A stretch of DNA of 33,147 nucleotides from the IMG/VR virus record IMGVR_UViG_3300028889_000019, positions 1-33,147 of that record, one strand, 5' to 3'. Of this stretch, positions 1,977 to 12,006 are shown piece by piece; position 1 is the first letter of the stretch; every line of letters begins with the position of its first letter. Below the pieces are notes generated by a model. The model made no database searches. It was not told the DNA's origin and saw only the letters and a list, made by a program, of their open reading frames with translations. The position numbers were made by a program, and so were the translations under genes. Source of the DNA: a virus.

Positions 1977-2003
1977 GAAAACCCAAACCCCATGTAGGGG
2001 TTT
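1977..2003 (-). terminator. TACAT-loop hairpin terminator T1
   Basis: On the minus strand AAACCCC pairs with GGGGTTT around the loop TACAT, followed by GGGTTTTC. It lies 20 bases after the stop of the small membrane gene ending at 2024 and just before the ribosome site of the gene starting at 1963. It is one of eight hairpins of this design (T1-T8). Confidence 0.65.
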
Positions 2004-2188: not shown

Positions 2189-2231
2189 TCCTTTCGTAGG
2201 GGTCTCACTATAACCCCTGTAAACTTTGCGA
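2189..2231 (-). promoter_or_regulatory. Start-associated element 1
   Basis: On the minus strand: TCGCA, TTTACA, GGGGT, TATAGT, GAGACCCCTAC, GAAAGGA, then the GTG start 26 bases after GTGAGACC. It fits the consensus of the ten-copy family and is the only copy inside a longer in-frame reading frame (2024-2380). Confidence 0.85.
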
Positions 2232-2339
2232 TGCATGAGAATGCACTGGTGACCGGCCAGTTGGAAGATATGGACTCGATCACCATTCGGCGCGGATTCG
2301 GTGTAATAGAAGTCCTCTGGGTCCACCGTAATTACCCCG

Positions 2340-2558
2340 TCATTCTGGGCTGCATTCGTCGACCCACTCGGTCCATTCATCGATGGATATGGGTTCGCCT
2401 TCTCCTGCTACCCAGACCGTATGAACGACGAGCGGGTTCCGCATGATGTAGTCCATGATCTGATCCTCGGTCCCTTCGAACAGAGGATTCAGATCACGGT
2501 CCAGGATGGTTCCGTCGACGTGAGCCTTCGGATCACCCAATGCGCATTTGGCGCACAT
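2340..2558 (-). CDS. 72-residue acidic hypothetical
   Basis: Begins MCAKCALGDPKAHVDGTIL and ends EWVDECSPE. There is one CxxC pair at the N-terminus and a late Cys, too few for a confident zinc finger. The ATG at 2556-2558 overlaps the stop of the NlpC/P60 gene by one base (TGATG), so it is translationally coupled to that gene. The 108 bases between this stop and element 1 hold no separate start I can defend, only the upstream extension of the next reading frame. Function unknown. Confidence 0.65.
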   Translation of the reverse strand: MCAKCALGDPKAHVDGTILDRDLNPLFEGTEDQIMDYIMRNPLVVHTVWVAGEGEPISIDEWTEWVDECSPE

Positions 2559-3034
2559 CAATATCGTCCGTAAACGGCCGTGGGCGAGCCCGCCGTGTAC
2601 TCCTTGATTGGAGCCTCGACGACCTTCCGGCCACGATACGAGCCGGTGTTCGCGTTGAGCATGTACCCAACTCCGTTCCTGACGCCGGTGAAGATACCCG
2701 CGTGGTAGACACGCCCCCGGCTGTCGCGGATGAAGATCAGATCCCCAGCCCTCCGAGAACTGGGGGAGACCTTCTGCGACTTGTTGTACTGGTCCTGAGC
2801 AACGCGGGGCAGCGTCTTGCCGTGCTGCCTGTACGCCCAGTAGACCAAACCGGAGCAGTCGTAACCCCGGCTGTAGCCGCCTTCGGCTCCGTAGACGTAC
2901 CGAGCGCCCTTCTGGGTCTTGGCGCTGGCCATGGCGGAGCTCCGGAGAGTTGCGGCCTCCGCGCTGGGTATGGATAAGGCGAAGATACCCAAGGCCAGAG
3001 CGAATATGACGACGATTCTCTTGCTACTGTTCAT
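2558..3034 (-). CDS. Secreted NlpC/P60 family endopeptidase
   Basis: A 158-residue protein. Residues 1-27 form a signal peptide (basic MNSSKR, hydrophobic IVVIFALALGIFAL, then SIPSAEA before the likely cleavage site). The rest is an NlpC/P60 domain: the nucleophile is in YDCSGL (C60), the histidine in VYHAGIFTG (H111), and an Asn near 127-129 can supply the third polar residue. The family cleaves peptide bonds in peptidoglycan stems. A signal peptide means host Sec export. The start at 3034 has GGGAAAG upstream. The longer frame to 3133 only reads through a hairpin. It sits far from the holin group, so a role in wall access or superinfection control is as possible as lysis. Confidence 0.88.
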   Translation of the reverse strand: MNSSKRIVVIFALALGIFALSIPSAEAATLRSSAMASAKTQKGARYVYGAEGGYSRGYDCSGLVYWAYRQHGKTLPRVAQDQYNKSQKVSPSSRRAGDLIFIRDSRGRVYHAGIFTGVRNGVGYMLNANTGSYRGRKVVEAPIKEYTAGSPTAVYGRY

Positions 3035-3059
3035 GGTGCTTTCCCATCCCTCAAAGGGT

Positions 3060-3133
3060 GTGACGACCGGGGCGGTGACTACAGTCGCGGGTGAGACCCC
3101 TACTTGACTGCCATCTACCACCCCGGTCGCCAC
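3060..3133 (-). promoter_or_regulatory. Long imperfect hairpin before NlpC/P60 gene
   Basis: Bases 3060-3076 pair with 3117-3133 as a 17-bp RNA stem with two G-U pairs. An internal mismatch follows, then five more pairs (CAGTC with GACTG) around a 19-base loop. The loop carries TGAGACCCCTAC, the core of the start-associated element, on the opposite (plus) strand. The hairpin ends 25 bases before the ATG, so it would sit in the 5' leader. Confidence 0.55.
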
Positions 3134-3135
3134 GT

Positions 3136-3252
3136 TCAGAAGAGGAGTGCCTTAACTCCCCAGGCGATGAAATATCCGCTCAACACGAGGGTCGAGATGA
3201 TACCCATCTGGATGAAGAAGATCTTCAGCTTTGCAAGCTCTTCTTCGGTCAC
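3136..3252 (-). CDS. 38-residue membrane microprotein (GTG start)
   Basis: Read from the intergenic DNA. It begins MTEEELAKLKIFFIQMGIIS and continues as a hydrophobic helix ending WGVKALLF. The start GTG (3250-3252) overlaps the stop TGA of the upstream gene (GTGA), a typical coupled start. A short acidic N-terminus plus one membrane span fits a membrane microprotein. The stop lies three bases before the long hairpin at 3060-3133. Function unknown. Confidence 0.6.
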   Translation of the reverse strand: MTEEELAKLKIFFIQMGIISTLVLSGYFIAWGVKALLF

Positions 3253-3779
3253 GCAGTCTTGCCGAGCTTCCGGCTGCGCCGCTGGTACGCGATCATGAAG
3301 TGCTGCTGGGACATCTTCTTCGTGTCCGTGCCGGCGATCCGGTCGAAGTCCTCGTCGGACATCTCCAGGAGTTGCTGCTCGGTGAACTCCTGGTTCGTCT
3401 CCTCCTTGATCTTCTGCTGGATGTTCTCCGGCAGGATGCTGGTGAAGAACGCCGCGCCGATGTCGTCAGAGCTGCAGACCTCGCTGAAGATCGCGTTGTA
3501 CGCACCGCCGTACTTGAACTCGCGTAGGGTCGCCTCGTCCTTGACGAAGAGCTTCCCGATACGCTTGCCCGCCGACCTCCACATGAGTTCGCGCCACAGT
3601 TCGAGCAGTGCCCGGCTGTCGTGGTCCTCCATGATCTGCATGAGGTACTGGGCGGGGTTCGGGAGATGTGCGATCTCCATGTCGACCACGTCGGACGGCT
3701 CGAGCCCGAACCACCACTCCTCGGTGACCTCTTCACCATCGATGTTGGTGAAGGTTATCTCCTTCTTGATTACCGCCAT
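3249..3779 (-). CDS. Possible tail-assembly-chaperone-like protein
   Basis: A 176-residue soluble acidic protein beginning MAVIKKEITFTNIDGEEVTE, then EWWFGLEPSDVVDMEI. It is helical through the middle, with EQQLLEMSDEDFDRIAG near the end and a basic C-terminus (YQRRSRKLGKTA). The opening beta-strands followed by helices resemble tail assembly chaperone proteins of Gram-positive phages. The call is tentative because a chaperone candidate also exists at 23203 in the normal tail position. Codons are strongly C/G-ending, like the capsid gene, which suggests high expression. AGAGGG precedes the ATG. Confidence 0.6.
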   Translation of the reverse strand: MAVIKKEITFTNIDGEEVTEEWWFGLEPSDVVDMEIAHLPNPAQYLMQIMEDHDSRALLELWRELMWRSAGKRIGKLFVKDEATLREFKYGGAYNAIFSEVCSSDDIGAAFFTSILPENIQQKIKEETNQEFTEQQLLEMSDEDFDRIAGTDTKKMSQQHFMIAYQRRSRKLGKTA

Positions 3780-3820
3780 GGGAATATCCCTCTGTTCTTT
3801 CTGGTCTCAGACGCCTGGGA

Positions 3821-4186
3821 TCAGGCGGCGGTCTCGTCGGCCGCGGCGTCCTCGGGCTCCGCCTCGACGGTGAGCTCCATGACCTCCTCGACCTTCTCAC
3901 GGGTCAGACGGGCGACGGTGACGCCGGCAGCCACGGCCCCCACGGCGACGCCGTAGAAGAACTCCCGGTGGCCCTTGGCCTTCTCGGTCAGAGCCGCCAG
4001 ACGGTCCTTGACGGTCTTCTTGGTGGTGTCGGCCTGGTCGGCGCCGTCGGTGGTCTCCGTCCCGCTGTCCGCCGCTTCGGCCTGCTGGGGAACGGTGGGC
4101 TTGTCGGTCAGACCGGCCTGCTCGACGACCTCCTCGAGGGGGGACTTCTTCTCGGCGGCAGCGGCGGTGCTCTTGGCGTTGGACAT
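3821..4186 (-). CDS. Single-helix membrane protein, acidic flanks
   Basis: A 121-residue protein: an Ala/Glu/Thr-rich, probably disordered N-terminal 75 residues, one membrane helix (FFYGVAVGAVAAGVTVARL), then an acidic Ala/Glu/Asp tail. It shares this design with the 89-residue protein starting at 6369, though the sequences are only loosely alike. GAAAGG precedes the ATG, with no start-associated element. Codons are strongly biased to C/G endings, so it is probably abundant. A small GCCTG/CAGGC hairpin overlaps the stop. Function unknown. Confidence 0.75.
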   Translation of the reverse strand: MSNAKSTAAAAEKKSPLEEVVEQAGLTDKPTVPQQAEAADSGTETTDGADQADTTKKTVKDRLAALTEKAKGHREFFYGVAVGAVAAGVTVARLTREKVEEVMELTVEAEPEDAAADETAA

Positions 4187-4294
4187 TATCTTGTGTGGCC
4201 TTTCTTAGTTTTCCCCGAACACTTCGTCCAGGTGAGTTGTGCGGTAGTGAAAAGCGGCCCGCCAATATGGGTTATCGGCAGGGTCCGCAGCTCT

Positions 4295-5131
4295 TCAACC
4301 GGTGGCGTTCCAGTAACGCGGGATCGGCGGGGGCATGAACTCGATCGAGAAGCACGGCCGGTCGTCCGTAGTCACCGTGGTGGTGACCTTCAGCTCGAAC
4401 TGTCGGTCCGTGTTCCAGCCGATGTCGTCCGAGCCGGTAGTGTGCTGGAGGCCGAGCTTGTCCCAGACATCCGACAACGACGCGTAGCCGTTGTTCAGGA
4501 TCTCCCAGTTGATGTCGTTCTCGACCTTGCGCAGGGCCTGCATGTTGGTGTCGAAGTATCGACCGGAGAAGGAGTCCCGGCAGGGAACGTTGCCCTCGGT
4601 GATGATGATGAGCTCGTTCTTGCCCGGAGGGTTCTCAGTGACCCGGTCCTGGTTGATCTCGTCCCGGATCGCCTGTTCCTTGTTCTTACCGACCTTCGCG
4701 AGCGTCTTGGCCCGATACTCGCCGTAGCTCTTCTCTACGACGGAATATGCGGACATCAGTGCCGCGTTCCGGCGCTCGTTGACATGGGCCGCGAAGATGA
4801 TCGCGCTGATGCCCACGGCCGCACTGATCGCCGCGGGGACGTAGCACTGCCAGGTGAGCTCGAACTTCTCCTGGTTGGTGAGCTCAGTCGACCCCTCGGT
4901 GACTTCTTCGGGCTCCTGGTACTTCGGGAGCTCGGCCACCGGGTTTTCTGCCAGGGCTTCAGCCTTCTTGGCCTCCTGAGCCTCGTCCAGGATTTCCTTG
5001 GCCCGGAAGGCACCCTTGGCGGCAAGATATGCCGTGGTAATGGTGCCAGTGACACCAATCGCGGACAGAATCGCCGGTGAGTTCTTAGCGGCGACCTTAC
5101 CCGCACGCTGGAAAAGCGCGCTGAGATCCAT
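4295..5131 (-). CDS. DUF6353-type phage membrane protein
   Basis: A 278-residue protein recognised as DUF6353-like from its layout. It has an N-terminal membrane helix (about 19-43, SPAILSAIGVTGTITTAYLA), a charged linker, and a second helix (about 97-116). A soluble C-terminal half includes CRDSFSGRYFDTNMQAL and, near the end, LNNGYASLSDVWDKLGL followed by DDIGW. That last block matches the Gly-Trp pattern of the proteins ending at 725 and 1262. ACAGGAGC precedes the ATG. The family occurs in phages and its role is not established. Placement in a cassette of small membrane proteins suggests a job at the host membrane. Codon use indicates good expression. Confidence 0.75.
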   Translation of the reverse strand: MDLSALFQRAGKVAAKNSPAILSAIGVTGTITTAYLAAKGAFRAKEILDEAQEAKKAEALAENPVAELPKYQEPEEVTEGSTELTNQEKFELTWQCYVPAAISAAVGISAIIFAAHVNERRNAALMSAYSVVEKSYGEYRAKTLAKVGKNKEQAIRDEINQDRVTENPPGKNELIIITEGNVPCRDSFSGRYFDTNMQALRKVENDINWEILNNGYASLSDVWDKLGLQHTTGSDDIGWNTDRQFELKVTTTVTTDDRPCFSIEFMPPPIPRYWNATG

Positions 5132-5191
5132 TGTGTTGCTCCTGTCTAGTCGCCAGCCGGCGATTCTGTTACGTCTGCGAGTGATGCGGTA

Positions 5192-5350
5192 CTACTGCTC
5201 GGACTTGGTCTCTTCCTCCGCCATGGCGGAAACGGGCTGACCAGTGAGCTTCTCGAGGATCGAGATATAGGCGATTCCACCCATCATGGCGCCGAGACCC
5301 ATGGCCACGGTACAACCGTAGAGCGTCGCGATCCTGTTGAGCTTGTTCAA
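5192..5350 (-). CDS. 52-residue membrane protein (TTG start)
   Basis: Read from the gap between larger genes. It begins MNKLNRIATLYGCTVAMGLG, continues as a glycine/alanine/methionine-rich helix, and ends SAMAEEETKSEQ. The TTG at 5348-5350 has AAGGA eight bases upstream, and no ATG or GTG precedes the hydrophobic segment in frame. The stop of the preceding gene lies 12 bases upstream. One membrane span with an acidic tail, like several neighbours. Function unknown. Confidence 0.65.
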   Translation of the reverse strand: MNKLNRIATLYGCTVAMGLGAMMGGIAYISILEKLTGQPVSAMAEEETKSEQ

Positions 5351-5362
5351 GTCGATCAGTCC

Positions 5363-6022
5363 TTACTTCGTGACCTTGATGGCCGGCTTCGGAGCCGCGG
5401 GGGCCGGTGCCTGAACGGTGGGGACCTTCGCCGGCTTGGTCTTGACCGTGGAAGGCGTCTTCGCCGCGGGCTTCGAGGTGCTGGGAGTCTTGACGGTGGC
5501 GGTAGGCTTCGAGGTGCTGGGAGTCTTGACGGTGGCGGTAGGCTTCGTCGTCGAATGCTCCGCCTCCTTCTCGAGGATGACCGTCTTCGTGTTGCCCATG
5601 ATGGTGAACTCGAAGGTGATCCGGCCGTCCTTGTATTCGAACGTCTTCGTCTTGTCCTGGGAGCCGAGGAGCGACCGCTCCATCGCGTCCGAGTCGCCGA
5701 TGGACGTCGTCTTGAACGACTTCGCCGTGCTCTTGTCCCCGGGGAACGTGCCGAGCCAGTAGATGCTGGAATCGCCGTCGCGGGACTCGGCGTTGATCTG
5801 GATGGCGCCAGCTGTGATCTGGGCCTCCATCTCCATGCCGTTGAAGATCTCGGTGTTGGTCTGATCCCACTCACCGACGAAGCTTTCCGGAACCGACGGT
5901 CCCCCCGCCGAACCGTTCAGAGCGCTGACGGAGACGGCGAACCCGATGGCGGTGGTGAGTACTGCGGCGCCAATCAGTGGGTACGTGACCTTACGTCTGC
6001 GCTTGATGGTGTGGTTGTTCAT
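5363..6022 (-). CDS. Anchored lipocalin-like protein with Pro/Lys tail
   Basis: A 219-residue protein. The N-terminus is basic (MNNHTIKRRRKVTYP) followed by a hydrophobic segment (LIGAAVLTTAIGFAVSVSAL), an uncleaved anchor or signal peptide. Residues about 45-150 look like an all-beta domain (FVGEWDQTNTEIF, IYWLGTFPG, TFEFTIMGNTKTVILE), reminiscent of lipocalin-like folds. The tail is repetitive: TVKTPSTSKPTA twice, then Ala/Pro/Lys-rich, as in wall-spanning linkers. The start at 6022 has AGGAGGGG upstream. A surface or periplasm-like location is likely. The ligand is unknown and the fold assignment is tentative. Confidence 0.7.
   Translation of the reverse strand: MNNHTIKRRRKVTYPLIGAAVLTTAIGFAVSVSALNGSAGGPSVPESFVGEWDQTNTEIFNGMEMEAQITAGAIQINAESRDGDSSIYWLGTFPGDKSTAKSFKTTSIGDSDAMERSLLGSQDKTKTFEYKDGRITFEFTIMGNTKTVILEKEAEHSTTKPTATVKTPSTSKPTATVKTPSTSKPAAKTPSTVKTKPAKVPTVQAPAPAAPKPAIKVTK
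5469..5540 (-). repeat. 36-bp perfect tandem duplication in coding tail
   Basis: Two identical 36-base units (5469-5504 and 5505-5540), with the start of a third at 5541. They encode two 12-residue repeats of the TVKTPSTSKPTA type in the linker of the anchored protein. The exact DNA identity points to a recent duplication by slippage. Confidence 0.9.
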
Positions 6023-6046
6023 TTTGGTCCCCTCCTGTGCAAAATG

Positions 6047-6075
6047 AAAACCCAAACCCCTTGTAGGGGGTCTGG
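6047..6075 (-). terminator. TACAA-loop hairpin terminator T2
   Basis: Minus strand: ACCCCCTACAAGGGGT followed by TTGGGTTTTC. It lies 25 bases after the stop at 6100 and before the ribosome site of the gene starting at 6022. Same design as T1. Confidence 0.65.
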
Positions 6076-6099
6076 GCCTGATTCCGGTTGATGGTTCGG

Positions 6100-6369
6100 T
6101 CAGTTGTCGGTGGACTCGTCGGCCGGGGCCTCGGTGTCGGTCTCTTCGACGTCCTGCATGTTGGAAACGACCTTGACGGCGGCGTAGACGGCGGTGATTC
6201 CGGCGACGGTTGCGCCCAGCCCGATGAGGATCTTCTTGGGGTCGATCTTCTTCGGGGCGGTGCTCTCGTCGGCGGACTCCTCGCCGTCCAGCCGCGCTTC
6301 GGTCTTCTCCAGAAGGCGGGTGAGGAAGGACTTCTTCGGGGTCTCGGTCTCGGTGGTCTCAGTGGACAT
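6100..6369 (-). CDS. Single-helix membrane protein, acidic flanks
   Basis: An 89-residue protein beginning MSTETTETETPKKSFLTRLL, with one helix (ILIGLGATVAGITAVYAAVKVV) and an acidic tail ending EAPADESTDN. The start at 6369 is chosen over the in-frame GTG 27 bases upstream because that one lies in the presumed -10 of the start-associated element. AAAGG precedes 6369. It resembles the protein starting at 4186 in layout: disordered acidic N-terminus, helix, acidic C-terminus. Function unknown. Confidence 0.75.
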   Translation of the reverse strand: MSTETTETETPKKSFLTRLLEKTEARLDGEESADESTAPKKIDPKKILIGLGATVAGITAVYAAVKVVSNMQDVEETDTEAPADESTDN

Positions 6370-6375
6370 GACAAA

Positions 6376-6419
6376 GCCTTTCGATAGGGGTCTCACTATA
6401 CGCCGTGTAATTCTTGCGA
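6376..6419 (-). promoter_or_regulatory. Start-associated element 2
   Basis: Minus strand: CTCGCAAG, ATTACA, CGGCG, TATAGT, GAGACCCCTATCGAAAGG, then the ATG. All boxes of the family are present; one base is inserted between CCTA and CGAAAGG. Confidence 0.82.
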
Positions 6420-6434
6420 GCCCCTAGGTTGTGG

Positions 6435-6542
6435 CTACTCGTCGTCGCCGTCGACGAACACCTCGTCGCGTACCTTCTTCGCGATGAAGAAGATGATAAG
6501 CATGATGAGCGTGAGGATGGTGATCTTCTTACCAGCGGCCAC
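6435..6542 (-). CDS. 35-residue membrane microprotein (GTG start)
   Basis: Begins MAAGKKITILTLIMLIIFFI and ends with a charged tail (AKKVRDEVFVDGDDE). It is almost entirely one membrane helix with a Lys-rich N-terminus and an acidic C-terminus. GTG at 6540-6542 follows GAAAGG at a spacing of seven bases. It is bracketed by start-associated elements on both sides, which supports an independent gene. Function unknown; holin-like size, but there is no evidence for lysis. Confidence 0.65.
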   Translation of the reverse strand: MAAGKKITILTLIMLIIFFIAKKVRDEVFVDGDDE

Positions 6543-6571
6543 GACAGTGCCTTTCTCTCGACGAAAATGGA

Positions 6572-6629
6572 ACCCCATGCAGCTGTTAAATGGGGTCGTC
6601 TTTCATCACATGACGTGTAAAGCTTGCGA
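6572..6629 (-). promoter_or_regulatory. Divergent start-associated element 3 with leader hairpin
   Basis: Minus strand: CTCGCAAG, TTTACA, CGTCA, TGTGAT, GAAAGACGACCCC. The TCGCA and TTACA boxes are kept but the hexamer is degenerate. Then ACCCCAT pairs with ATGGGGT (6590-6596 with 6572-6578) around an 11-base loop, placing a hairpin in the leader, 30 bases before the GTG. Confidence 0.6.
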
Positions 6630-6631
6630 GG

Positions 6632-6862
6632 TTAACGCTTTCGCGTCTTCTTCGGTTTGACGTGCTCGTCCTCCAGCAGAGCCGGCGCCTTCATCCCCTC
6701 GACCTTACCCTGAGCGATGTTGGGCTCCCACCGGCCGAGCAGAGTCATCCTGCTGGCGGCCAGAATATCGGCAAGGTCCTCACGCTCGGTGTCGACAGTG
6801 AGGGGGATGTGAACGTGCACCAGCGGGTAGTCCGGGTGGGGCCGAATAACCTTGATCTGCAT
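6632..6862 (-). CDS. 76-residue hypothetical protein
   Basis: Begins MQIKVIRPHPDYPLVHVHIP and ends with a very basic tail (VKPKKTRKR). It is soluble, probably a beta-strand followed by helices, and no family was recognised. The ribosome site AAGGA overlaps the stop of the preceding 43-codon gene (TAAGGA), so it is the last gene of a three-gene run 7199 to 6632 that lacks internal start-associated elements. The basic tail could bind nucleic acid or lipid; this is a guess. Confidence 0.65.
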   Translation of the reverse strand: MQIKVIRPHPDYPLVHVHIPLTVDTEREDLADILAASRMTLLGRWEPNIAQGKVEGMKAPALLEDEHVKPKKTRKR

Positions 6863-6870
6863 GATGGTCC

Positions 6871-7002
6871 TTACTTGTTACGACGAATCTCGGCGCGCAT
6901 TTTGCGTATCTGGAGTTCTCCGAGGATTGCTCCTACGACCCCTCCAGCTGCACCGATTACCGCGACGAATACGAGCGGCTTCTCGATCCAGAGCTTCTTC
7001 AT
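6871..7002 (-). CDS. 43-residue membrane microprotein
   Basis: Begins MKKLWIEKPLVFVAVIGAAG, a single glycine-rich helix, and ends QIRKMRAEIRRNK. The ATG (7000-7002) overlaps the stop of the preceding gene (ATGA). Both this protein and the preceding one have one helix, a basic tail and end in RNK, so they may be diverged duplicates. Function unknown. Confidence 0.62.
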   Translation of the reverse strand: MKKLWIEKPLVFVAVIGAAGGVVGAILGELQIRKMRAEIRRNK

Positions 7003-7199
7003 TTGTTACGGTGCATCCTTGCGTAGGCGCGACGACTCTGAAGACCGCTGACGGCGTCGATGAACTTGCCAGCCCCGGCGAGGGCTGCACCCACCACCGC
7101 GATGACTGCGAGCGGGTTCTCCTCCCAGGACTCCTTGAGCTTGGCCATGGCCTTCGAGCGCTTCTCGTTGATGTCGGAAACGGAGGCAATGCGAACCAT
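6999..7199 (-). CDS. 66-residue single-helix membrane protein
   Basis: Begins MVRIASVSDINEKRSKAMAK, then WEENPLAVIAVVGAALAGAGKFIDAV, and ends RRAYARMHRNK. One membrane span with a basic C-terminus. The start at 7199 has AAAGG eight bases upstream. The frame upstream runs through hairpin T3 and is discarded. It is the first gene of the run 7199-6632. No start-associated element precedes it, only hairpin T3, so its promoter may be elsewhere or it may rely on readthrough. Confidence 0.68.
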   Translation of the reverse strand: MVRIASVSDINEKRSKAMAKLKESWEENPLAVIAVVGAALAGAGKFIDAVSGLQSRRAYARMHRNK

Positions 7200-7217
7200 G
7201 AATATGAACCTTTCGGC

Positions 7218-7246
7218 GAAACCCAAACCCCTTGTAGGGGTTGGGA
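7218..7246 (-). terminator. TACAA-loop hairpin terminator T3
   Basis: Minus strand: AACCCC pairs with GGGGTT around TACAA, followed by TGGGTTTCG. It lies 15 bases after the stop at 7261. Confidence 0.6.
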
Positions 7247-7260
7247 GGTAGTGGGTGAGG

Positions 7261-7467
7261 TCAGTTCTCTTCGAGTTCGTCCATGTGGTAGTACTCGTCA
7301 CTCAGGCCCTTCTCGTCCAAGAAGGCGTTGAGGGAACGGATTCCGATCTGCTGGAGCACCACGACCGTCGTGGAAACGACGGCAACGGTGCCCAGGATCT
7401 TGGTCTTGTTCTCAACGACCTTGTTCTTGGCAGAGACGAGCTTGTTCTTGACGGGGGCCATGTTCAT
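7261..7467 (-). CDS. 68-residue single-helix membrane protein
   Basis: Begins MNMAPVKNKLVSAKNKVVEN, then a helix (ILGTVAVVSTTVVVLQQIGI), then an acidic tail ending YYHMDELEEN. The ATG at 7467 follows start-associated element 4 of the TCTGATTGG subtype, in which the usual AAAGGA is replaced. A second ATG two codons in is possible. Function unknown. Confidence 0.7.
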   Translation of the reverse strand: MNMAPVKNKLVSAKNKVVENKTKILGTVAVVSTTVVVLQQIGIRSLNAFLDEKGLSDEYYHMDELEEN

Positions 7468-7471
7468 GGTG

Positions 7472-7519
7472 GGTCCAATCAGAGTAGGGGTCTCATTATA
7501 ACCCCTGTAATTCTTGCGA
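7472..7519 (-). promoter_or_regulatory. Start-associated element 4 (TCTGATTGG subtype)
   Basis: Minus strand: CTCGCAAG, ATTACA, GGGGT, TATAAT, GAGACCCCTAC, then TCTGATTGGACC in place of GAAAGGA. The hexamer is a perfect TATAAT. It begins two bases after the stop of the gene at 7522. Element 5 shares the altered leader. Confidence 0.85.
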
Positions 7520-7521
7520 GC

Positions 7522-7749
7522 TCAGTCCCACCAACCGAGTGCAGACCATAGGAGAACGACGAAGAAGCCAACAGGGATCATCGTCAGATAGAAGGCGAGT
7601 GGACCCAACGCAATGTTGACTAACCAATGAGTCAGATCTGCACCCGGCGGGACCATCTTGATCGTGAAGTACTCCCCCGATGCAACTCCGAGAGTGACCC
7701 AGACCGCGAAGGGATGCTCTTTGATGTGGAACTTGGAATTGCTTTCCAT
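7522..7749 (-). CDS. 75-residue polytopic membrane protein
   Basis: Begins MESNSKFHIKEHPFAVWVTL and contains two hydrophobic stretches: about 15-35, weaker, and about 45-72 (NIALGPLAFYLTMIPVGFFV then VLLWSALGWWD). It differs from its neighbours in having two spans and aromatic residues. GGGAGG precedes the ATG. There is no start-associated element; terminator-like T4 lies upstream, and an imperfect GAAATTCC/GGAATTTTC repeat surrounds the ribosome site. Function unknown. Confidence 0.7.
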   Translation of the reverse strand: MESNSKFHIKEHPFAVWVTLGVASGEYFTIKMVPPGADLTHWLVNIALGPLAFYLTMIPVGFFVVLLWSALGWWD

Positions 7750-7780
7750 GAAATTCCTCCCGGGGAATTTTCCGAAAACG

Positions 7781-7812
7781 AAAAGCCATACCCAATGTAG
7801 GGTAGAGGGCTT
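7781..7812 (-). terminator. Two-tier hairpin terminator T4
   Basis: Minus strand: an outer stem AAGCC/GGCTT and an inner TACCC/GGGTA around TACAT, followed by TTTTCG. It lies seven bases after the stop at 7819. Confidence 0.65.
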
Positions 7813-7818
7813 CTGAGA

Positions 7819-8061
7819 TCAGTCTTCTTTGTTGTCGGCGCTTTTGGTCTTCTTGACTGCGATCTCGCTCACCGTGTCGATAGCCTTGATTGCGGCGTAA
7901 GCGGCAACCGCGGTGATTGCGACGTACTTCGCTACCTTCTTGGTCTGGTCGGCGATTGCCTTGACGGTTTCGGGGCGAAGGAAGTTGTCATCACCGGGGG
8001 TTCCGGTCTTGTTGTCCTTTTCGAGGCTGAGACGGAGCGAGCGCTTCTTGTTCCCAAGCAT
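7819..8061 (-). CDS. 80-residue single-helix membrane protein
   Basis: Begins MLGNKKRSLRLSLEKDNKTG, has a hydrophobic Ala/Ile/Val helix (VAKYVAITAVAAYAAIKAI), and ends KKTKSADNKED. One membrane span in the C-terminal half. The start follows start-associated element 5, and terminator T4 follows the stop, so it is a complete one-gene unit. Function unknown. Confidence 0.72.
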   Translation of the reverse strand: MLGNKKRSLRLSLEKDNKTGTPGDDNFLRPETVKAIADQTKKVAKYVAITAVAAYAAIKAIDTVSEIAVKKTKSADNKED

Positions 8062-8065
8062 GGCG

Positions 8066-8112
8066 GTCCAATCAGAGTAGGGGTCTCATTAGAGGCCATG
8101 TAGACCTTGCGA
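8066..8112 (-). promoter_or_regulatory. Start-associated element 5 (TCTGATTGG subtype)
   Basis: Minus strand: TTTCGCAAGG, TCTACA, TGGCC, TCTAAT, GAGACCCCTAC, TCTGATTGGACC, then the ATG. It shares the altered leader with element 4; the hexamer has one change. Confidence 0.82.
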
Positions 8113-8146
8113 AAGCATAAACCCCGTGTAGGGGTTTAGAGGCTTT
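8112..8146 (-). terminator. Two-tier hairpin terminator T5
   Basis: Minus strand: outer AAAGC/GCTTT, inner AAACCCC/GGGGTTT around TACAC, with CTCT and AT bulges and a short T-run. It lies four bases after the stop at 8151. Confidence 0.7.
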
Positions 8147-8150
8147 GAGA

Positions 8151-8282
8151 TCAGTCGATCACAGACGGCATCTGCTCGTCCTGGATTTCAGCGTCAAGCG
8201 CGGTGTCCCGGATCTCGGCGATCGTGATGAAAGCGAGGATCAGGGGACCGATTGTGTTGATGATTACCAGGTGGAGAGGCAT
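8151..8282 (-). CDS. 43-residue membrane microprotein
   Basis: Begins MPLHLVIINTIGPLILAFIT and ends with an acidic tail (DAEIQDEQMPSVID). It is one N-terminal helix. The frame is open upstream through the element (ATG AGA CCC CTA CGA), but the ATG at 8282 follows AAAGGA and is preferred. It is bracketed by element 6 and terminator T5 as a one-gene unit. Function unknown. Confidence 0.68.
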   Translation of the reverse strand: MPLHLVIINTIGPLILAFITIAEIRDTALDAEIQDEQMPSVID

Positions 8283-8289
8283 AGCACGA

Positions 8290-8332
8290 TCCTTTCGTAG
8301 GGGTCTCATCATAACCCCTGTAAATCGTGCGA
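8290..8332 (-). promoter_or_regulatory. Start-associated element 6
   Basis: Minus strand: TTCGCACG, TTTACA, GGGGT, TATGAT, GAGACCCCTAC, GAAAGGA. It is 27 bases from ATGAGACC to the true ATG, so the upstream ATG is in frame. The 38 bases between this and T6 hold nothing recognised. Confidence 0.85.
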
Positions 8333-8370
8333 ATCTCTCAGAAACTACTACCATTTTGAAGGGATCAGAC

Positions 8371-8404
8371 AAAAGCATAAGCCCCATGTAGGGGCCCAGA
8401 GGCT
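8371..8404 (-). terminator. Two-tier hairpin terminator T6
   Basis: Minus strand: outer AGCC/GCTT-type stem, inner GGCCCC/GGGGC around TACAT, then GCTTTTG. It lies six bases after the stop at 8411. Confidence 0.65.
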
Positions 8405-8410
8405 ATTGGA

Positions 8411-8689
8411 TTAGTGAGTGTCTTCCGCGCAATCGGGATCGTAGGCGAGGTCGATGATGTGGCCGTTGTAATTCCAGATCGTGGGTTCCCCCTTCTCGAG
8501 TTCCTTGAGGCAGCAGGCTCCCAGTGCCAGGTACATCGGCTTGGAACAAGCCTCACACTTTTTGTTGAGGGATTGCTTCAAAACGATCGCGTACACGATA
8601 GAGGTGACTGCGATTGCCGCAAGGGCGATCTCGGGGGCGTGGTCTTTGATCTTGGTCTTGACTTCGGCGAACTTCTTCTTCAGGTCCAT
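8411..8689 (-). CDS. Membrane protein with Cys-rich domain
   Basis: A 92-residue protein. A charged N-terminus (MDLKKKFAEVKTKIKDHAPE) is followed by one helix (IALAAIAVTSIVYAIVL), then a soluble domain with KKCEACSKPM, GACCLKEL and a last Cys near DPDCAED. The five cysteines, with one CxxC and one CC, suggest a small zinc-binding or disulfide-bonded domain after the helix. It is the only Cys-rich member of the cassette. The start at 8689 follows AAAGG of element 7. Function unknown. Confidence 0.72.
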   Translation of the reverse strand: MDLKKKFAEVKTKIKDHAPEIALAAIAVTSIVYAIVLKQSLNKKCEACSKPMYLALGACCLKELEKGEPTIWNYNGHIIDLAYDPDCAEDTH

Positions 8690-8694
8690 GACGA

Positions 8695-8739
8695 TCCTTT
8701 CGGTTAGGGGTCTCATCATAGAGCCTGTAAACCTTGCGA
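8695..8739 (-). promoter_or_regulatory. Start-associated element 7
   Basis: Minus strand: TCTCGCAAG, TTTACA, GGCTC, TATGAT, GAGACCCCTAACC, GAAAGGA. The five bases between TTACA and TATGAT differ from copies 1 and 6, so pairing with ACCCC is not conserved, which argues against a required stem-loop there. Confidence 0.82.
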
Positions 8740-8740
8740 G

Positions 8741-8775
8741 AAAAAGCATAAACCCATGTAGGGTTCAGAGGCTCT
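8741..8775 (-). terminator. Two-tier hairpin terminator T7
   Basis: Minus strand: outer AGC/GCT stem, inner AACCC/GGGTT around TACAT, ending GCTTTTTC. It lies five bases after the stop at 8781. Confidence 0.7.
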
Positions 8776-8780
8776 TGAGA

Positions 8781-9023
8781 TCAGTCTTCGGGTTCTTCGT
8801 TCTTGTTGATCGCCTTGACGATTACGACAGCGGCTGCAGCGATGACTCCGATCCTGACGAGGCTGCGGACGATGATCCTTCGGTTACGACGTGCTTCTTC
8901 TTCGGCTTGAGCTTGCGCTCGCTGCTTCCGAATGTCTCGCATCGTCTCCTCGAAGATCTCGCCACCAGCCCGCAGGTTGGAGTCGGCCAGAAGTCGGTCG
9001 AACGGGTCGCGGGGGTCATACAT
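8781..9023 (-). CDS. 80-residue single-helix membrane protein
   Basis: A soluble, charged helical N-terminus (MYDPRDPFDRLLADSNLRAG then EETMRDIRKQRAQAQAEEEA) is followed by RRNRRIIVRSLVRIGVIAAA, a C-terminal helix, and an acidic end (NKNEEPED). A tail-anchored topology is likely. The start at 9023 follows AAAGGA; the in-frame upstream ATG overlaps the TATAAT of element 8. It is a complete unit between element 8 and T7. Function unknown. Confidence 0.72.
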   Translation of the reverse strand: MYDPRDPFDRLLADSNLRAGGEIFEETMRDIRKQRAQAQAEEEARRNRRIIVRSLVRIGVIAAAAVVIVKAINKNEEPED

Positions 9024-9030
9024 GGGAAGG

Positions 9031-9073
9031 TCCTTTCGTAGGGGTCTCATTATAAGGCGTGTAGATCCTGCGA
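9031..9073 (-). promoter_or_regulatory. Start-associated element 8
   Basis: Minus strand: TTTCGCAGG, TCTACA, CGCCT, TATAAT, GAGACCCCTAC, GAAAGGA. It has a perfect hexamer. Only four bases separate it from T8, so any promoter for the next gene must lie within the element itself. Confidence 0.87.
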
Positions 9074-9077
9074 AAGG

Positions 9078-9112
9078 AAAAGCATGAACCCATGTAGGGT
9101 TCAGAGGCTTTT
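9078..9112 (-). terminator. Two-tier hairpin terminator T8
   Basis: Minus strand: outer AAAAGC/GCTTTT, inner GAACCC/GGGTTC around TACAT, with CTCT and AT bulges. It lies four bases after the stop at 9117. Confidence 0.75.
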
Positions 9113-9116
9113 GAGA

Positions 9117-9386
9117 TCAGTCTTTGAAACGAGCTGCCATCTTAAAGAACTCGTAGTCGTCTTTCAGGGCCTTCTCTCGTGCGGCGGTGTCGGGCAGATC
9201 GTCGTAGTAACCGAGGTCGATCAGATCCTTTACCACAGCATCTGCAGCCCTGGCAGCTCGAACGTTGGCGTACCTTTCGTCGAACTCAGAACACATCAGC
9301 TTACGGTAAATGATCATGTCGGCCACGACAGGGACGATCACGGCGACAGCCATCAGAGAGAAACCGATCTTGATTCCACGATTCAT
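9117..9386 (-). CDS. 89-residue membrane protein with helical tail
   Basis: Begins MNRGIKIGFSLMAVAVIVPV, a signal-anchor helix, followed by MIIYRKLMCSEFDERYANVR and a charged helical C-terminus ending FFKMAARFKD. The bulk of the protein is soluble, on one side of the membrane. The start at 9386 follows element 9; the upstream ATG in that element hits a stop after seven codons and is not used. Function unknown. Confidence 0.72.
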   Translation of the reverse strand: MNRGIKIGFSLMAVAVIVPVVADMIIYRKLMCSEFDERYANVRAARAADAVVKDLIDLGYYDDLPDTAAREKALKDDYEFFKMAARFKD

Positions 9387-9394
9387 CGATTCAG

Positions 9395-9437
9395 TCCTTT
9401 CGTAGGGGTCTCATAATATGCCCTGTATTCCCTGCGA
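9395..9437 (-). promoter_or_regulatory. Start-associated element 9
   Basis: Minus strand: TTTCGCAGG, AATACA, GGGCA, TATTAT, GAGACCCCTAC, GAAAGGA. It is 28 bases from ATGAGACC to the true start, so the upstream ATG is out of frame. Confidence 0.83.
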
Positions 9438-9442
9438 AAGGC

Positions 9443-9491
9443 AAAAAACAAGTGGCGTGCAAACCTTGCTAGGGTCTGCACGCCGCCTGTT
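9443..9491 (-). terminator. Strong intrinsic terminator T9
   Basis: Minus strand: GGCGTGCA pairs with TGCACGCC, with an inner GACC/GGTT and outer ACA-type pairs, directly followed by TTGTTTTTT. It is the most classical rho-independent terminator in the window and differs from the TACAW family. It lies 23 bases after the stop at 9515. Confidence 0.88.
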
Positions 9492-9514
9492 GTGATCCTT
9501 CAGGTTGACGATTG

Positions 9515-9817
9515 TCAGCCGATGAACTTCCGTCCGACCATGCCGAGCGCCTTCGAGGTGAGGGCGTGCGCGTGTTCGAAGTTCAGAACCAGGGCAATAC
9601 CGGCGAGATTCGCCACGGCGCCGAGAACAGCGTCAGGGCTCACACGCCTCTTGGAGTCGATCTCCTTGAGGGGGTAGAGCTTCTTCAGCTGGTCGGCGAC
9701 CGCGTTGTACTCGTTGGTGTTGGGCTCGTGGTTCTTGAGCTCCGCGAACAGGCGCGAAACCTCGATCTCGAGTTCGCTCGGTTCAGCAGTCTTCTTGATG
9801 TTCTTCAGGTTGATCAT
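9515..9817 (-). CDS. Conserved phage membrane hypothetical
   Basis: A 100-residue protein. Residues 1-50 are charged helices (MINLKNIKKTAEPSELEIEV, then RLFAELKNHEPNTNEY), followed by QLKKLYPLKEIDSKRRVSPD, then a hydrophobic stretch (VLGAVANLAGIALVLNFEHA) and TSKALGMVGRKFIG. The layout of a basic RRVSPD turn, one helix, then EHAHALTSKALG looks like a widespread phage protein of unknown function, recalled rather than checked. The start at 9817 follows element 10, and strong terminator T9 follows the stop. Confidence 0.78.
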   Translation of the reverse strand: MINLKNIKKTAEPSELEIEVSRLFAELKNHEPNTNEYNAVADQLKKLYPLKEIDSKRRVSPDAVLGAVANLAGIALVLNFEHAHALTSKALGMVGRKFIG

Positions 9818-9822
9818 TTCGA

Positions 9823-9865
9823 TCCTTCCGTAGGGGTCTCACTATAGGGCCTGTAAAATATGCGA
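9823..9865 (-). promoter_or_regulatory. Start-associated element 10
   Basis: Minus strand: GTCGCA, TTTTACA, GGCCC, TATAGT, GAGACCCCTAC, GGAAGGA. It marks the boundary between the late/lysis genes upstream and the small-gene cassette. A CCCC/GGGG mini-hairpin lies just before it, after the stop at 9882. Confidence 0.83.
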
Positions 9866-9881
9866 CCCCTGGGGAAGAATG

Positions 9882-11019: not shown

Positions 11020-12006
11020 CTAAGTGGTTCTCTTCCAGACCCCTACGCTTCGGACCCATGGCTCGGCAATCTTCCATACCCCGCCTACCTTCACGTAAGG
11101 GACTGCTAGTTTCTTTTCCGCGCCTACATACACGTAGGCTCCAGCAACAGTTCTGACGCTGGCTGCCCCAGACCACGAACTCCACCCCACCGCGCTCTTT
11201 GCCCGGGTTCGGAAGTAATATACGGTCCCAGGGTTGAGACCAGTCACCACCTGAGGAGACTTGGCGGCGACAGAGTTCGTCGGATTGCCCGTTGAACTCG
11301 TACTCCACCCGATCTCGTAGCCGGTGATTGTTGAGCCGCCACTAGCGTTGGGGCTAAAGGCGACGTCTACACTCGTCATCCTGGCGCTCGATAGAAGCGG
11401 AATGCTTGGGGCGTCTGGAGCTGTGAGTGTTTTAGCGGTTGCTCGGCCCGACCACGAGCTCCAGCCTTCGGAGTTGTGAGTGCGGGCCCAGAAGTAGTAA
11501 GTCGTTCCAGGAGACAACCCGAATATGGTCGTCGACCGGTCAGAGCTTACTGTGTCCTGCGGTGATGTCGAGCTCGTGCCGTAACCGATCTGCCGGGCGT
11601 CAATCGCATCACCACCGTTGGATCCGTCCGAGAATGTAGCATGGACGGAATTGGCTGTGATGCTGGATATGACTGGTGTAGTCGGCTTGGCAGGTACCGT
11701 GTCCCGCTTGATTGCCTGACTGAACGACGTAGGACCACCGATACCGGTCGCACTTGATCGGTCGGTGATCCTGAACGTGACCGTCTGGGAATCTGTAATA
11801 CGAACTTCACCGATCTTGTGCCAGTCGGCACCTGTCGGATAGTCGTACTTCCTGGACGTTGTTGTTCCGTTCGCCGTCCAGTTGAACGGCATGTCGTTCC
11901 ACCAGTCAGACGAATATCCGGCCTTGAACCAGAACTCGACATCGAGTCCGGTGTCCCGGATCATCATCTTTCCGTTGACGCCGGTGGTCTTGATATAATC
12001 GGTCAC
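11020..12006 (-). CDS. Minor tail protein with two Fn3 domains
   Basis: A 328-residue protein (GTG start). Residues 1-95 form a beta-rich head. Two fibronectin type III domains follow (about 105-195 and 198-288), each ending in YYF-x-(A/T)R followed by GWSSWSG. The C-terminus has YVYVGAEKKLAVPYVKVGGV, then WKIAEPWVRSVGVWKR: short VGGVWK-type repeats also found at the end of the tail protein at 21653. Fn3 domains on phage tails bind carbohydrate or the cell surface. It is the last tail gene before the lysis group. Probably a surface-exposed baseplate or fibre component. Confidence 0.85.
   Translation of the reverse strand: MTDYIKTTGVNGKMMIRDTGLDVEFWFKAGYSSDWWNDMPFNWTANGTTTSRKYDYPTGADWHKIGEVRITDSQTVTFRITDRSSATGIGGPTSFSQAIKRDTVPAKPTTPVISSITANSVHATFSDGSNGGDAIDARQIGYGTSSTSPQDTVSSDRSTTIFGLSPGTTYYFWARTHNSEGWSSWSGRATAKTLTAPDAPSIPLLSSARMTSVDVAFSPNASGGSTITGYEIGWSTSSTGNPTNSVAAKSPQVVTGLNPGTVYYFRTRAKSAVGWSSWSGAASVRTVAGAYVYVGAEKKLAVPYVKVGGVWKIAEPWVRSVGVWKRTT

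Follow-up and report, generated by a model that had tools for sequence, protein, structure and literature searches.

A strictly spaced phage element as a likely promoter of a two-barrel RNA polymerase, with a shared mRNA leader and a candidate antisense RNA

The window analyzed here is a whole virus record of 33,147 bases (IMGVR_UViG_3300028889_000019), whose minus strand is the coding strand and carries a cassette of small genes accompanied by a repeated sequence element. The cassette is approximately 96% identical to Bingvirus phages Miek and SendItCS (Streptomyces scabiei), and many of its small proteins are annotated as membrane proteins in Miek. A preliminary description of this DNA had reported ten minus-strand copies of the element; nine full copies and one degenerate copy were found there, at 2189-9866. 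Scanning of the whole window with a position weight matrix (PWM) of the 30-nt core gave 10 matches on the coding strand, none on the opposite strand, and none in Markov shuffles. The matrix was trained partly on these copies, and phages outside the training set gave the same outcome.

The element consists of a rigid core, TCGCA-N6-ACA-N5-TATAAT followed directly by GAGA, and an mRNA leader, CCCCTAC. The spacing between TCGCA, ACA, and the hexamer was constant in every window copy and not variable by 3-5 bases as previously described, and the supposed TTACA box proved to be A/T-rich DNA followed by ACA. The ribosome site, formerly given as GAAAGGA, read GAAAGG(A/C) in six of nine copies; two others had TCTGATTGGA and the remaining one GGAAGGA. 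Counted from the first G of GAGA, the start codon lies 23-27 bases away, which corrects the former 25-29 bases. With up to 2 mismatches allowed, GAGACCCCTAC occurred 23 times in the window versus 11.1 times expected, a number that none of 100 shuffles reached. The copies are arranged as follows, with predicted transcription start points (+1) and associated open reading frames (ORFs).

9830-9866, minus strand: copy 1, core 9866-9841, predicted +1 at 9840, leader GAGACCCCTAC, ORF 9515-9817
9402-9438, minus strand: copy 2, core and leader, predicted +1 at 9412, ORF 9117-9386
9038-9074, minus strand: copy 3, core and leader, predicted +1 at 9048, ORF 8781-9023
8704-8740, minus strand: copy 4, core and leader GAGACCCCTAA, predicted +1 at 8714, ORF 8411-8689
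8297-8333, minus strand: copy 5, core and leader, predicted +1 at 8307, ORF 8151-8282
8077-8113, minus strand: copy 6, core (TCTAAT) and leader, predicted +1 at 8087, ORF 7819-8061
7484-7520, minus strand: copy 7, core and leader, predicted +1 at 7494, ORF 7261-7467
6601-6630, minus strand: copy 8, degenerate core TGTGAT followed by GAAA, without the CCCCTAC leader, predicted +1 at about 6604, PWM score 22 bits
6384-6420, minus strand: copy 9, core and leader GAGACCCCTAT, predicted +1 at 6394, ORF 6100-6369
2196-2232, minus strand: copy 10, core and leader, predicted +1 at 2206, GTG-started ORF 2024-2182

Intrinsic terminators were found on the same strand, and for some copies, as had been noted before, a terminator stands directly before the element.

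9085-9103, minus strand: intrinsic terminator, TGAACCC TACAT GGGTTCA TGCTTTT
8751-8765, minus strand: intrinsic terminator
8381-8395, minus strand: intrinsic terminator
7789-7804, minus strand: intrinsic terminator
6056-6071, minus strand: intrinsic terminator
1985-2003, minus strand: intrinsic terminator

The cassette is mostly built of one-gene units, each with a promoter, a leader, a small protein and, in several cases, a terminator.

Lack of conservation in related phages had been named in the preliminary description as grounds for refutation, and the core proved to be conserved. The full core was present in phages of Streptomyces (Bing, Rima, Rainydai, Kardashian, ClubPenguin, LibertyBell, PherryCruz, and RosaAsantewaa), Gordonia (Secretariat, Pherobrine, and Mossy), Rhodococcus (ReqiPoco6 and ReqiPepy6), Arthrobacter (Tribby), and Microbacterium (DizzyRudy); the core was also found in a saliva siphovirus. 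It was shortened in Lactococcus phages, of which P078 retained only TTTTACAT.CCCTATAATGAGA. Among 552 distinct putative promoters from 144 loci, the core had a fixed length of 26 nt, and the CG, ACA, TATAAT, and GAGA positions were near-invariant. All core matches were in coding orientation, with no reverse-orientation match in any phage scanned. Across 49 nt, copy 1 of the window matched Rimavirus phages with 98% identity, and copy 3 was approximately 90% identical to intergenic DNA of Rhodococcus phage ReqiPoco6 and Gordonia phage Secretariat. The leader was found on mRNAs in part of the range of the core (165 CCCCTAC and 46 CCCCTAT among 468 coding-like units), and the leaders common in the non-coding class did not include CCCCTAC. 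Core and leader are thus separable. The two separable modules, and a structured antisense RNA matching the leader, are additions to the preliminary description.

The genes that follow the core point to its role. In ReqiPoco6 and ReqiPepy6, a tRNA-Ala gene lies 7-8 nt from the +1 of a leaderless core, and in many phages the core precedes short non-coding RNAs (ncRNAs) that start with GAGAGG or GAGAAG and end with CCTCTC or CTTCTC and a T-run. When the 6-mer was taken at successive offsets in 84 non-coding units, offset 0 being the G after TATAAT, its reverse complement beside a T-run peaked at offsets -3 to +4, with up to 20 units, and was found in no more than 2 units at other offsets. This peak suggests that the RNA 5' end lies at, or a few bases from, GAGA. 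Judging from these terminal stems of the ncRNA units, transcription of the mRNAs is highly likely to start at GAGA as well. Because the core precedes tRNA and non-coding genes without the leader, it would be a transcription promoter and not a translation signal, a step that the sequences strongly support.

Further RNAs were also noted behind the core. In P078 it precedes a short ncRNA, present in two identical copies, and also a tRNA-like gene (L015:4645, L015:9330, and L015:5013), each with a long terminal T-run, and in Gordonia phages (L020:4224 and L025:3663) tRNA-like transcripts closed by GAGAGG/CATCTCATTTTTT were not called by ARAGORN. One further family of promoter-driven, self-terminating RNAs has the motifs GAGACACGAATGTGTAGG..CCTACC..GGTGC..AATCACAGTTTTCGATGGGCTGTGA and a T-arm-like hairpin, and has no Rfam match; its members are L011:24538-24650, L010:23124-23230, L023:822-930, and others at L030, L149, L155, L191, L207, and L234.

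A candidate reader of the core is encoded at the right end of the genome in relatives. This protein of approximately 930 residues is annotated as an RNA-dependent RNA polymerase or as a helix-turn-helix (HTH) protein, and it matches phrog_4291. The motif ADFDGD, which contains the DxDGD catalytic loop, was invariant in 27 sequences, in 11 of which Pfam RdRP was found. Pfam analysis also revealed a sigma-70 region 4-like HTH at the C-terminal end and another HTH near the N-terminal end. An AF2 model (pLDDT 79) had its closest folds in QDE-1, plant RDR2, and phage P74-26 gp62; the Foldseek match of the model to 2j7n had an E-value of 3.9e-10, but a whole-chain TM-score of only about 0.3.

The distribution of the element was then compared with that of this RNA polymerase (RNAP) in 50,697 phage records. 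Counts of element and RNAP by genus were 55/55 for Gordonia, 54/54 for Streptomyces, 4/4 for Rhodococcus, 12/12 for Siphovirus, and 4/4 for Microbacterium, with poorer agreement at that blastn sensitivity for Arthrobacter (48/95) and Lactococcus (8/13); in these records, the element was not found outside genera having the polymerase. The RNAP was encoded in 22 of 23 large core-bearing contigs picked by DNA pattern alone, versus 1 of 13 comparison contigs (p = 1.3e-7), and in all 14 named phages with the core. Polymerases with approximately 50% identity retain promoters with approximately 90-95% identity, which points to selection acting on the site. These findings make it likely that the core is read by the phage's own two-barrel RNAP. 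The earlier proposal of a promoter inside the element, used by a phage-encoded polymerase, is well supported by the orientation of the copies, the use before tRNAs and ncRNAs, the predicted +1 abutting the hexamer, and the co-distribution with the RNAP.

In several phages, a weaker core (20-24 bits) was observed approximately 0.9-1 kb upstream of the polymerase gene itself (L263:1075, L282:1103, L299:1077, and L317:1035), where it is followed by AGAAGGG or AGAGGGG and probably lies in the long gap before an HNH gene.

Other explanations of the element were weighed against a phage-specific promoter. The host RNAP, with its principal sigma factor and possibly a phage activator on TCGCA/ACA, could use TATAAT as an ordinary -10 box, and the variation of the hexamer (TATAGT, TATGAT) is indeed like that of -10 boxes, as the preliminary description had pointed out. 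With a host sigma factor, transcription starts approximately 6-8 nt downstream of the -10 hexamer. Here, the hexamer and the predicted +1 nearly abut, and an ordinary -35/-10 promoter was rejected on this spacing, a +1 directly after TATAAT being too close for a host sigma -10. Nor did the core have the other features of sigma-70-type promoters, since it has no -35 box at the usual distance of 16-18 nt and only four of the 552 promoters had the TG of an extended -10. One core shared by high-GC actinobacterial phages and, partly, by Lactococcus phages also argues against the host enzyme, which is a rather improbable reader. An array of operators for a phage repressor or silencer, similar to the stoperators of cluster A, would account for copies that are repeated, asymmetric, in a single orientation, and scattered between genes; it would not account for the fixed distance to the start codon (about 23-34 nt) or the position just before a tRNA or ncRNA, nor for bases after the element that pair with the transcript 3' end, and the relatives examined have no annotated integrase or repressor. 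We regard this explanation as very improbable. The same applies to an RNA-level translation-initiation element like the start-associated sequences (SAS) of cluster K mycobacteriophages: a ribosome site and a start codon adjoin the element and the CCCCTAC leader is mainly on mRNAs, but tRNA and non-coding genes without a start codon also follow the core, most of which lies upstream of the predicted 5' end. For the core, the action on translation that had earlier been considered is not supported.

A structured RNA with a sequence complementary to the leaders was found in the window.

3060-3133, minus strand: RNA hairpin, reduced from a structured RNA conserved in relatives, with GTAGGGGTCTC in the apical loop as a complement to the mRNA leaders
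3093-3103, minus strand: antisense block GTAGGGGTCTC in the hairpin loop

The loop shows GUAGGGGUCUC, which complements the predicted mRNA 5' ends exactly. The single perfect opposite-strand copy of GAGACCCCTAC is located at 3093-3103, and approximately 0.016 such copies were expected by chance. Folding of 3040-3140 gave a minimum free energy of -58.2 kcal/mol (z -6.4). The hairpin differed from that of Miek in 5 base pairs and 1 unpaired base, with the loop unchanged; all 5 pairs were still paired, and 3 of them had changed on both sides. The duplex of the window loop with its own leaders had an energy of -23.6 kcal/mol, versus -9.6 kcal/mol after shuffling (0/500).

At the syntenic place, relatives harbor a larger RNA with a stem P1, a stem P2, a loop, and the conserved motifs CCGGATGC and AAACGACAGCCG. 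These two motifs, plus named phages, made up the whole search for the larger RNA, in which the loop had no part. The loops of 38 of the 39 distinct larger RNAs in promoter-bearing loci contained AGGGGTC or AGGGTCTC. Covariation in P1 and P2 was strong: 94.7% of cells were paired, double changes were seen in 11 of 13 pairs, and 66 cells were double-changed versus 16.9 in shuffles, none of 500 shuffles being as good. Loops paired with the leaders of the same phage at a median of -24.0 kcal/mol, versus -15.1 kcal/mol with shuffled loops, and the duplex energy with the loop was -23.7 kcal/mol for mRNA leaders versus -11.9 kcal/mol for the 5' ends of promoter-driven ncRNAs. In ReqiPoco6, L045, L059, and L060, the complementarity of the loop reaches over the ribosome site. 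Relative to the larger RNA, the window hairpin has lost the core and retains the antisense hairpin and the outer stem, which suggests that the antisense loop is the essential part. Rfam covariance models at the gathering score gave no family matching the RNAs. The RNAs thus combine a conserved structure with an exposed complementary seed, as a trans-acting antisense RNA would. These features of the sequences tip the balance slightly toward antisense pairing in vivo, the effect of which is more likely to be repression than activation.

Two alternatives concern the antisense step only. The hairpin may act in cis on the transcript that contains it, as an attenuator or a processing site, its complementarity being local or idle; in ReqiPoco6, PherryCruz, and RosaAsantewaa, a promoter-leader onto which the RNA can fold lies no more than approximately 50 nt away. 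The loop is kept, though, in Bing, Rima, Secretariat, and this window, where no leader is adjacent, and a purely local role seems unlikely. It is less likely still that the structured RNA serves as a polymerase decoy or template in the manner of 6S RNA, the copying of which would yield GAGACCCC RNA. The loop is indeed identical to the template strand where transcription would begin, +1 to +11, and the enzymes closest in fold to the polymerase are RNA-dependent, but the match extends beyond the GAGA common to all promoters to the mRNA-specific CCCCTAC and sometimes the ribosome site, and the 5' ends of promoter-driven ncRNAs match the loop poorly.

We therefore prefer, as the likely reading of the whole, a promoter with a 5' leader that is read by the phage two-barrel RNAP and probably governed by an antisense RNA. 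A single-chain two-barrel RNAP of the phage (phrog_4291, QDE-1/YonO-type fold, HTH near each end) would recognize TCGCA-N6-ACA-N5-TATAAT and begin transcription at the adjoining GAGA. Approximately nine short mRNAs would be made in this phage, mostly of one small gene each and several closed by their own terminator, and in relatives the same promoter would also make tRNAs and self-terminating ncRNAs. At its 5' end, each mRNA would have GAGACCCCUAC and then the ribosome site. GUAGGGGUCUC would be presented by another RNA of the phage, in the window the hairpin at 3060-3133, which would most likely pair with these 5' ends and thereby modulate or shut down translation throughout the cassette. The chances seem evenly balanced that all RNAP-made mRNAs share a 5' tag (GAGACCCCUAC plus ribosome site) through which a dedicated antisense-loop RNA switches the whole cassette, the RNA of the window being pared to a hairpin with the antisense loop and outer stem.

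Several observations weigh against this reading. The co-distribution of element and RNAP could result from shared descent, as these phages have many other genes in common, and the RNAP gene lies outside the 33-kb fragment and was seen only in relatives. L083, Tribby, and L153 have the RNA core without the antisense loop, and the leaders of Tribby are not uniform. The complementarity between loop and leader could instead reflect the DNA template strand, and no promoter core is present directly before the antisense RNA. In a loop-swap test, loops fitted the leaders of their own phage no better than did loops of other phages; this flat result arises because the leaders are too uniform, and fine co-adaptation is thus unsupported by the test.

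The closest known systems are the polymerases of SPbeta (YonO) and P23-45. A 2017 study of YonO described its promoter sequence as still undetermined, along with any requirement of the enzyme for a factor (PMC5467207), and the P23-45 RNAPs gp64 and gp96 have short conserved promoter motifs (PMC10770324). Like the candidate reader, these enzymes (PMC5467207, PMC10770324) belong to the same fold class, have the catalytic DFDGD, and each serve a phage gene set. In contrast to them, the promoter described here is strictly spaced, highly conserved over 26-30 bp, and common to several host genera, and the enzyme has HTH segments near both ends. No Bacillus (SPbeta) phage was found by tblastn with the polymerase. 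For a polymerase family related to YonO, our analysis proposes both a promoter sequence and the point at which transcription would start, and the enzyme itself contains HTH segments. Since such phages grow on common laboratory strains of Streptomyces and Gordonia, the question of the YonO-type promoter is directly testable, and candidate orthogonal promoter-polymerase pairs for actinomycetes become available.

In promoters of T7-type single-subunit RNAPs, which occur in many copies in one orientation, an AT-rich box lies immediately before +1 and the transcript start is rich in purines. T7 TATA followed by GGGAGA and TATAAT followed by GAGA here are alike in layout, but by analogy only, as the T7-type enzyme has an unrelated fold and a different upstream recognition sequence and spacing. 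Bacterial trans-acting small RNAs are structured and expose a seed loop that is complementary to the 5' regions of mRNAs, and 6S RNA mimics a promoter; unlike these, the RNA described here is phage-encoded, matches the 5' ends of transcripts presumably made by a single polymerase, and falls in no Rfam family. The SAS/ESAS of cluster K mycobacteriophages, with GGGATAGGAGCCC as the SAS, have a proposed role in translation initiation (PMC3203893). Both they and the present element are repeated, asymmetric, and upstream of many small genes of one phage, and the analogy drawn in the preliminary description stands for this general layout. It fails in the sequence, which differs, and in the position of the core before non-coding genes, and membership in the SAS class (GGGATAGGAGCCC at protein-gene starts) was rejected on the same two points.

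The element sequences were not found in a phage context in the literature searched, which left out Summer et al. 2011 (ReqiPepy6/ReqiPoco6), nor was the antisense RNA found described there; surveys of Microbacterium and Arthrobacter phages mentioned only other motifs. A conserved antisense-type RNA and many promoter-driven ncRNAs would thus form two unannotated layers in well-known phages. If the tag and the antisense RNA act as proposed, one RNA would switch translation of an entire small-gene cassette at once.

Some smaller features were also observed. In Microbacterium phage DizzyRudy (L018:8195-8765), a highly structured intergenic gap of 560 nt with several GGGGA-loop hairpins lies just before a promoter. 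Most terminators of the window (8751-8765, 8381-8395, 1985-2003, and others) share the stem-loop (A)CCCCTACATGGGG(T), the 5' arm of which is similar to the CCCCTAC block of the leaders and might likewise encounter the antisense loop. A match to CAGACCCCTAC on the plus strand at 11036 was set aside, as it is antisense to the last part of the coding sequence of a minor tail gene. Three copies had a GGGG..CCCC inverted repeat on either side of TATAAT, which was dropped because it was not conserved in the others. Copy 8 has a GACCCCAT..ATGGGGTT hairpin within approximately 50 nt (6556-6630), upstream of a small membrane ORF starting at about 6542. Similar units were observed in Kardashian (L021:4962) and L037, and copy 8 may be an attenuated or ncRNA unit.

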